Below, one piece after another: positions 38,081-47,185 of a stretch of DNA of 64,000 nucleotides. Both the position numbers and the translations under genes were made by a program. The first letter of the stretch is position 1. Each line of letters starts with the position of its first letter. Below the pieces are notes generated by a model. That model saw nothing but the letters and a program-made list of their open reading frames with translations. It had not been told where the DNA came from and made no database searches. This DNA is from Paenibacillus sp. FSL K6-1330 (GTDB taxonomy: Bacteria; Bacillota; Bacilli; Paenibacillales; Paenibacillaceae), in NCBI RefSeq assembly GCF_037976825.1, contig NZ_CP150269.1:6668501-6732500 (forward strand), in the 5' to 3' direction.

Positions 38081-38345
38081 CTAGACCGCGGTTCCACTCT
38101 GCTTAGAACCGGCACAAGCCTCCTCCCTTCGTCAGGGACGGATTCTACCGATTCTCTTCATGTCATTAACGGCAGACGACCGGCATGATCTAACGATTGT
38201 GTTCGCTTCAACCATGCAGCTCACAGGTGCATTTCCGCTGCAGGCGACGGGACAACTCTCAGCCGGCAAATTCAAGTGGTCCTTGTCTTCTGCCGATTGT
38301 CCTCTCTGGAACGTGCCTGTTTTACGCGTACTTCTCCTGATCGTA
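38046..38345 (-). promoter_or_regulatory. T-box riboswitch of the cysE-cysS operon
   Basis: The minus strand carries the T-box consensus variant AGAGTGGAACCGCG at 38087-38100, which pairs with the acceptor end of an uncharged tRNA to form the antiterminator. The regulated terminator follows. Upstream, a Stem I-like region (about 38230-38345) includes an AGAGAGG motif near 38305. The tRNA-Cys specificity is inferred from the downstream genes; the specifier codon was not resolved with confidence. Confidence 0.9.
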
Positions 38346-38400
38346 GCTTTTGTACGTTTATATTTGTTGATCTATGTGAAGGAAACAACGCTCTATAGAA

Positions 38401-38529
38401 CGCTGCGCTGACGGATTGTGCTTCCGATCGCTGTTGCCTTCCGATTTCTTTAACGATATCACATAGGTGGAAATCGGAAGACAAAGGCGAACGCTTCGCT
38501 TCTACAGCACAATTCCGTCCTCTCCGCTG
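38401..38529. repeat. structured dispersed repeat, copy A
   Basis: 129-bp element between gltX and the cysE T-box. Outer stem: CGGATTGTGCT (38412-38422) with AGCACAATTCCG (38506-38517), one bulge. Inner stem: CTTCCGATTTC (38438-38448) with GAAATCGGAAG (38470-38480), 11 bp, loop 21 nt. Conserved unpaired blocks CGATCGCTGTT and AAAGGCGAACGC, and tail TCCGTCCTCTCCGCTG. A second copy lies at 46900-47027. Confidence 0.8.
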
Positions 38530-38651
38530 CTTCTCCGTATGAGTTGTTGCTACCTAACCTAGATCAAAGAATATTTCACTTATAGTTTGGTGTAATTATA
38601 ACTGATGATATACGGGCTGACAAGGAACGTTTATTCGAAGAAGCGCCCGAA

Positions 38652-46899: not shown

Positions 46900-47027
46900 C
46901 GCTTCGCTGCCGGATCGTTCTTACGATCGCTGTTAAAACCAGGAAACTGGAATTGATATTATGGTGGTTTCCCGGTTTTAAAGGCGAACGCTGTCGCTTC
47001 TTCAGAACGATTCCGTCCTCTCCGCTG
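46900..47027. repeat. structured dispersed repeat, copy B
   Basis: 128-bp second copy of the element at 38401-38529. Outer stem CGGATCGTTCT (46911-46921) with AGAACGATTCCG (47004-47015). Inner stem TTAAAACCAGGAAAC (46933-46947) with GTTTCCCGGTTTTAA (46967-46981), 14 of 15 pairs. Conserved blocks CGATCGCTGTT, AAAGGCGAACGC and TCCGTCCTCTCCGCTG are shared with copy A. It lies between the clpC terminator and radA. Confidence 0.8.
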
Positions 47028-47185
47028 GGTTGATACATGAGGGTTGTTTTCTTAATTCGCTTTTCATCCATATGCCTAATTATTTTATCGATAAAACAGC
47101 CTTGGTCATTGCATTCACTGACTTCTGAGCATCCAAGTCTCTGCCCCATACAAAACCTTCATCTTCCATTAACATTAAAATCAAA

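Follow-up and report, generated by a model that had tools for sequence, protein, structure and literature searches.

In appearance, the closest described relatives of the element reported here are the bcr repeats of the Bacillus cereus group. Dispersed elements of 100-400 bp, bcr1 among them, occur in Bacilli; bcr1 averages about 39 copies per strain and is regarded as mobile, a TTTAT motif having been linked to mobility (PMC6542083), and it is listed among stem-loop families (PMC2267715). As described, bcr1 is specific to the B. cereus group (PMC6542083), whereas the present family spans the Paenibacillales, and the two are set apart on the basis of that description.

In behavior, the closest systems are single-stranded DNA (ssDNA) elements of the IS608/REP type and integron attC sites, and by the tests made here the element is a member of neither. 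IS608-type elements act on ssDNA of the lagging-strand template (PMC6006769). REP and REPIN sequences with TnpA-REP (RAYT), as well as the ends of IS200/IS605 elements, resemble our element in being intergenic repeats with a hairpin on one strand and in their use of lagging-strand-template ssDNA (PMC6006769), which for our element would be the putative form. However, REP palindromes are described as 20-40 bp long (PMC3733652), compared to a multi-part fold of 130 nt here, and several genomes rich in our element lack a Y1 transposase. With attC sites it shares conservation of structure over sequence, an extrahelical base, and variable terminal structure (PMC2727003), but it is dispersed, its arrays as read contain no cassettes, and no R boxes were seen.

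Two further systems bear on the chemistry of the fold. GNA and GNNA loops (N being any base) on at least two G-C pairs form extraordinarily stable DNA mini-hairpins, and the GCGAAGC mini-hairpin has a Tm of 78 °C, according to the group that described such hairpins (PMC4686876). Our element comes close to this rule, with a 2-bp stem that covaries and is capped by a GNA or GNNA loop; d(GCGAAGC) is a short synthetic motif, whereas here the mini-hairpin is part of a larger genomic fold, sometimes has an A-T pair, and would fold as DNA. The authors of the structured motif STAXI considered that it might be ssDNA and weighed its tetraloop type (Weinberg et al. 2010, PMC2864571). STAXI elements, unrelated to ours, are pseudoknot repeats near DNA-handling genes, and their UUCG loops spoke for RNA (PMC2864571), whereas the GNNA loops here speak for DNA. 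Among open-access papers searched by title or abstract start, we found none about the present family.

Results

Two copies in a Paenibacillus genome

We analyzed a 64,000-nt stretch of Paenibacillus sp. FSL K6-1330 (the window; contig NZ_CP150269.1, positions 6,668,501 to 6,732,500). The genome is a single contig of 7.43 Mb with its origin, placed by dnaA, at coordinate ~0. A preliminary description of the window had reported two copies of an intergenic element, and a covariance model (R1) places both cores where it had located them. The structural strand, however, is the reverse complement of the strand read there; we refer to it as the R strand. Features of the two copies are as follows.

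38401..38531, minus strand: conserved core of copy 1, with a structural strand of 131 nt (cmsearch, model R1, 139.8 bits)
46900..47029, minus strand: copy 2 conserved core, 130 nt (cmsearch, model R1, 126.3 bits)
38493..38499, minus strand: copy 1 mini-hairpin GC-GAA-GC (from the sequence)
46990..46997, minus strand: copy 2 mini-hairpin GC-GACA-GC (from the sequence and alignment)
38366..38568, minus strand: probable full extent of the insertion at copy 1, comprising the core and, around it, the inverted arms TTTGATCTAGG...CATAGATCAA (boundaries inferred)
38595..38623, minus strand: promoter-like TTGTCA-N17-TATAAT upstream of copy 1 (from the sequence)

Copy 1 lies 372 bp before cysE in the gltX/cysE gap, and copy 2 lies in the clpC/radA gap; these four genes are what we take them to be from their translations. 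Located downstream of the promoter-like sequence, copy 1 would fall in the transcribed cysE leader. Copy 2 is behind an apparent clpC terminator and has no comparable leader position. The outer arms of copy 1 (TTTGATCTAGG/CATAGATCAA) largely retain their complementarity in orthologues, as judged by eye. The unit is flanked on either side by AAATAT, and in an empty-site comparison the gaps compared gave no clean empty site. A partial T-box match below threshold (15.3 bits, window positions 38301-38353) lies upstream of cysE and adjoins copy 1.

An order-wide family

The preliminary description suspected a new repeat family and proposed a covariance-model search for further copies with paired changes, together with a comparison to Rfam. 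A single-sequence search of the genome gave 27 matches, in some cases with one copy split into two. Model R1, built from 21 own-genome copies with three partial copies omitted, gave 53 matches at E <= 1e-3, including several truncated copies and one antisense match to the palindromic inner stem; the genome holds about 50 copies. The same model found matches in all 24 other genomes of the genus, at 5 to 72 places each. When model R2, built from 56 matches from 51 sources picked for diversity, was applied with a cutoff of E <= 1e-5, the element was detected in 257 of the 296 genomes sampled from the order, representing 36 of 48 genera; because at most 11 candidates were scored per genome, this survey measures presence and not copy number. 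At gathering thresholds, the element in the window matches no family in Rfam release 15, and at E values up to 10 this stretch gave only four weak matches, the best with E 0.26. The suspected family was thus borne out at the level of the genome, the genus, and the order, and the further copies carry paired changes, so that the outcome named in the preliminary description as refuting its claim did not arise.

A conserved fold with one selected strand

On the R strand, from the outside in, the fold consists of a terminal helix, an outer stem with a bulged A, the mini-hairpin, a 6-bp stem with one pair that varies among G-C, T-A, and C-G, a constant CT/CA internal loop, an inner stem of ~15 pairs whose sequence is largely free, and a terminal loop of 20-odd bases. 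The terminal helix has 2 bp, the first being G-C in 13 and A-T in 7 of the 21 aligned own-genome copies, and in a wider set (39 pairs, 56 sequences) all 54 of its lettered cells are paired; it adjoins G.A-type positions, with G/A and A/G in 20 of 21 copies. In every one of the 21 copies both pairs of the mini-hairpin are formed and its loop starts with G and ends with A. The first of these pairs is G-C in 16, A-T in 4, and G-T in 1 (n = 21, alignment A1).

Pairing is maintained while the letters change. Among the 21 own-genome copies, 90.7% of cells are paired where shuffles reach 77.5%, and cells with changes on both sides number 106, compared to 30. In the wide set, 91.8% of cells are paired. 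Changes on both sides affect 491 cells there; shuffles give 124.9, and no slid structure gives more than 131. In the two window copies, the inner stems are near-perfect despite their different sequences, as the preliminary description had noted, and the outer stem shows the reported T-A to C-G and G-C to T-A changes and a bulge at the same place. Pairing is not kept throughout, as had been claimed, since one outer pair (A1 columns 14/128) is A-T in copy 1 and A.G in copy 2.

Several subtypes depart from the standard fold. One of ~172 nt contains an inserted extra hairpin, and another of ~116-121 nt has a different long outer stem. Forms of 69 nt lack the inner hairpin, with an apparent deletion between ACAGCG repeats, and distant subtypes have other mini-hairpin loops (AAC, CTG).

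Relative to dinucleotide shuffles, the reverse complement of the strand first read folds with z scores of -5.4 and -4.1, compared to -4.3 and -2.2 for that strand itself. The reverse complement folds better because wobbles are G.U there and A.C on the other strand. In the paired columns, 104 cells are G.U and 28 are A.C, and without two G.U-rich columns the counts are 64 and 28. With DNA energies the R strand is more stable in 42 of 56 copies and less stable in 4; with RNA energies the corresponding numbers are 40 and 9 of 56. The G.U excess and the difference in stability indicate that selection sees the R strand, and R is therefore the selected strand.

Very strong covariation and tolerance of G.U on one strand are what a structured RNA would be expected to show. 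Under this explanation, which we consider possible but doubtful, the family is a noncoding RNA or a processing or binding element borne on transcripts that has spread as a repeat, with its fold selected in RNA. The position of copy 1, between a good promoter-like sequence and cysE, fits such an origin. The lack of any Rfam match and the position of copy 2, behind the apparent clpC terminator and outside any such leader, do not. As a specific form of this idea, a leader RNA was rejected: of the two window copies only copy 1 is in a presumptive leader (that of cysE), and, an IS110 transposase apart, the neighbor families recurring in at least four of 100 loci are, as read from sequence, ordinary.

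Orientation relative to replication and genes

When R runs with the replication fork, it is the lagging-strand template. We counted runs of same-way copies as one locus, placed origins by dnaA, and assumed the terminus to be opposite; one antisense match of 53 in the own genome and two of 57 in genome G006 were dropped beforehand. The R strand runs with the fork at 37 of 46 loci in the own genome, 43 of 51 in genome G010, and 21 of 32 in G006, where the bias is weak (p 0.11). In a fourth genome, G014, inspection by eye gave 9 of 14 with the fork among the matches listed (of 68).

Because genes are also fork-biased, the two effects were separated statistically, using the 96 loci for which both neighbors were called (45 own, 32 G010, 19 G006). 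Given the genes, the fork has a strong effect (chi2 22.7, p 1.8e-6, a value that is optimistic because orthologous loci may be shared among the three genomes), whereas gene direction adds nothing once the fork is known (p 0.46). Even at loci whose two neighbors do not both follow the fork, 34 of 44 copies run with it (own 11/15, G010 16/19, G006 7/10), reaching significance singly in G010 only. By context, copies run with the fork in 10 of 10 divergent gaps, 19 of 27 convergent gaps, and 5 of 7 cases in which both genes run against the fork. Across the own genome, G010, and G006, the orientation of the element tracks the fork and not the flanking genes. The lagging-strand-template orientation expected of REP/RAYT or IS200-type elements is found here, more weakly in G006.

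These counts bear directly on the possibility of an RNA family. The gene on the 5' side has the same direction as the element at 74 of the 96 loci (47 + 27), in favor of a transcript-borne element, but the element is opposed to both neighboring genes at 12 of the 96, and gene direction has no effect beyond that of the fork.

Fork orientation would also suit sites of the attC type, recombined as single strands by a putative integron-type tyrosine recombinase. The plan described for attC sites, with one folded strand, an extrahelical base, unpaired central spacers, and variable terminal structure (PMC2727003), is that of our element as well. Nevertheless, we consider this explanation very improbable: most copies are solitary, no R box of the attC consensus was seen by eye, and no recombinase family recurs near the 100 loci covered. 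The eight arrays compared are tandem duplications and not series of different cassettes. Their spacers are near-copies of each other, 78-100% identical over the aligned parts, and integron-like arrays were rejected for this reason.

Mini-hairpin loop type

The RNA tetraloop rule is GNRA. Mini-hairpin loops could be parsed in 118 of 177 rows, with orthologous and tandem copies included in the counts; the other 59 rows, of which 20 are shorter than 110 nt and 19 longer than 142 nt, fall outside the reading pattern and were uncounted. GNA accounts for 67 of 74 triloops and GNNA for 41 of 44 tetraloops. In 31 of the 41 GNNA loops the third base is a pyrimidine, so that they are not GNRA, and therefore the RNA rule is not what is kept, a point against selection of the fold in RNA. 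With GNA and GNNA loops predominating, and with both pairs G-C in 16 of the 21 A1 copies, the loops match the rule for ultra-stable DNA mini-hairpins better than the GNRA rule. RNA is also able to form such loops. Neither fork orientation nor loop type is proof by itself, given that the copies are related and that RNA is not barred from these loops.

Turnover at orthologous loci

The copy 1 site is kept in the own genome and nine close ones, with element identities to ours of 78 to 96%. Across these ten orthologous elements, including ours, 95.6% of cells are paired and 8 pairs are changed on both sides. Two slightly more distant genomes (G021 and G047) are without the element at this site, and the gltX-cysE gap is ~220 bp shorter in Paenibacillus sp. 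DMB20, P. dakarensis, and P. faecalis. Among 80 orthologous yacL neighborhoods, 46 of them labeled Paenibacillus, five gave six matches, and none of the 80, several of which are incomplete, has a copy in the clpC-radA gap. One of the six (L073, P. brevis) lies in the gltX-cysE gap, at another place than ours and 88 bp before cysE. By protein landmarks, the others are in neighboring gaps: radA/disA in L100, ispF/gltX in L061 and L078 (twice in the latter), and ispD/ispF in L074. Since the copies in these five other Paenibacillus species are at other places, the region from radA to cysE has been hit repeatedly, by independent arrivals. A housekeeping RNA at a fixed locus was rejected, as none of the six matches from the 80 neighborhoods, several of them incomplete, is at the place of copy 1 or copy 2.

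A comparison over 400 kb with genome G087, whose blocks are mostly 87-97% identical to ours, found three copies that are full-length in both genomes and three with internal losses in one of the two, in one case clearly between 8-bp repeats ATCGGAGA. In addition, other sequence takes the place of a tandem pair, and one composite copy occurs in our genome alone. Retention of the fold among orthologues, together with loss and gain of copies, indicates that the fold is maintained where the element stays, while individual copies are dispensable.

The preliminary description left the choice between an RNA element and a recombining DNA element open. A DNA element is the better fit because of the fork-following orientation, the DNA-type loops, gain and loss, and MITE-like carriage; the word "recombining" is not borne out, as we obtained neither a recombinase nor a clean insertion or excision site.

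Carriers and multiplication

In G010, young copies resemble one another over as much as ~200 bp and terminate in inverted repeats, (C)TATATAGATTGAACTAAAGA ... TCTTTAGTTCAACTTATATAG. Other copies are found within a mosaic repeat whose ends resemble GGGGCTGTCCCAAAAG. From these sequences, we read the core as sometimes riding in MITE-type carriers. Copies outside MITE-like carriers have the core alone in common. Of 59 copies, 11 have flanks whose complementarity reaches a rank p <= 0.05, and outer arms conserved in all copies were rejected, since only these 11 exceed mismatched flanks. G014 contains 116 matches (63 + 53, at most 2 mismatches) to the terminal repeat of the young copies, and no terminal repeat was within 500 bp of a core copy among the matches listed (14 of 68 cores), suggesting that carrier and core are separable.

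Terminal inverted repeats, mosaic carriers, internal deletions, and tandem duplications are also the marks of ordinary MITE debris, that is, neutral hairpins moved by host transposases, in which paired changes would come from template-switch correction of quasi-palindromes without selection. Template switching, however, makes perfect palindromes, whereas the CT/CA loop, the bulged A, the mini-hairpin, and the wobbles recur at fixed positions across the order. Fork polarity and strand asymmetry also argue against this explanation, as do the common core of copies outside MITEs and the apparent separability of carrier and core in G014 (among the matches listed), and we regard it as unlikely.

Two observations concern the carriers themselves. 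In G014, a high-copy unit with terminal inverted repeats (TATAAGTTGAACTAAAGA ... reverse complement of TATAAGTTGAACCAATGA, often ~180-300 bp apart) has 27 of 32 exact matches to its terminal repeat fork-wise among the matches listed, with the origin based on dnaA. In the own genome, five 69-nt forms (L045-L049, at 1.77 and 3.24-3.45 Mb) are embedded in a mosaic repeat whose ends are MITE-like.

Associated genes and mobile elements

In a census of 100 loci, made with a simple gene finder that may miss small genes, the only mobility gene to recur in at least four loci is an IS110 transposase. The other families that reach this number are ordinary large ones (two-component, ABC transport), as read from sequence. 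Four own-genome copies are cut by the same IS110-family element at an identical point, after ...GGGGGCAACAG.

L039:1499-1630: IS110-interrupted copy
L040:1545-1676: IS110-interrupted copy
L041:1524-1655: IS110-interrupted copy
L043:1279-1409: IS110-interrupted copy (PF01548 and PF02371 in L043)

L039 and L040 share flanks, so these represent at least three independent hits, and the IS110 element appears to target this repeat. The right-hand junction of the insertions was not found in the sequence pieces examined.

The Y1 transposase domain (PF01797, Y1_Tnp) was found in 15 of 40 genomes; 12 of the 25 tested genomes of the genus lack it, and it was not found in the copy-rich G006, G011, G012, G018, and G020. 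Reverse transcriptase (PF00078, RVT_1) is absent from 8 of the 25, all of them carriers (G001, G005, G006, G007, G016, G017, G019, G021). G006, with 56-57 matches, has neither. These absences led us to reject Y1 transposase and reverse transcriptase as movers, as neither is needed for present-day carriage, and to reject a retro-element dependent on a group II-type reverse transcriptase (a bacterial SINE).

DNA similarity searches found no phage record and three plasmid records, all from Paenibacillus. A pattern scan of contigs from a viral collection found 15 with a full copy (L246-L260). Both prophage contigs that were read have the element on the phage gene strand, next to a holin gene (PF05105). 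In L250, a tail-fibre-type gene lies further upstream of the element, and in five viral contigs the element is 580-582 bases away from the beginning of the available sequence. A small conserved gene (78 aa, METTAQEVAEWMVKEIRF...) present in two species (L022:5977-6213 and L024:561-797) has diverging element copies or arrays on both flanks.

An RNA family retains genuine weight, given that copy 1 would be transcribed, that it and its nine orthologues keep the fold (95.6% paired, 8 both-side changes), and that the prophage copies read are codirectional with phage genes and adjoin a holin gene.

Discussion

The element described here is an order-wide, structure-keeping, and partly mobile repeat with one selected strand, oriented with the fork in the genomes checked. 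We think that the two copies in the window belong to a non-autonomous dispersed family whose selected form is one folded strand of DNA, and we put the probability of this reading slightly above one half (roughly 0.55).

If the selected form is folded DNA, passage of the fork would expose the R strand as lagging-strand template, and the exposed strand would fold into the hairpin and be recognized by a putative ssDNA-handling protein. Such recognition would give insertion or retention its fork polarity, and would maintain selection on the fold as its sequence diverges. Multiplication occurs by tandem duplication and inside MITE-like carriers. A more specific version, which we offer tentatively and consider rather unlikely, is that the element is an ssDNA "structured site" of the Paenibacillales, presented on the lagging-strand template at each fork passage as the substrate of a putative fork-associated protein. 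It could belong to a new system of ssDNA recombination or transposition without an HuH enzyme or an integron integrase, or could be the chromosomal counterpart of the single-strand initiation hairpins of phages and plasmids, marking lagging-strand events.

Large families of intergenic repeats with a complex conserved fold are usually classed either as RNA or as MITE debris. In this family the directions of fork and genes can be separated, the fork prevails, and the loop type agrees with it, which serves as a warning that covariation alone does not prove RNA. If our reading is true, a noncoding element in most of the sampled genomes of an order acts as folded DNA. Its protein partner could then be fished with a defined oligonucleotide, and the family would provide a large natural set of variants from which to learn what that partner recognizes.
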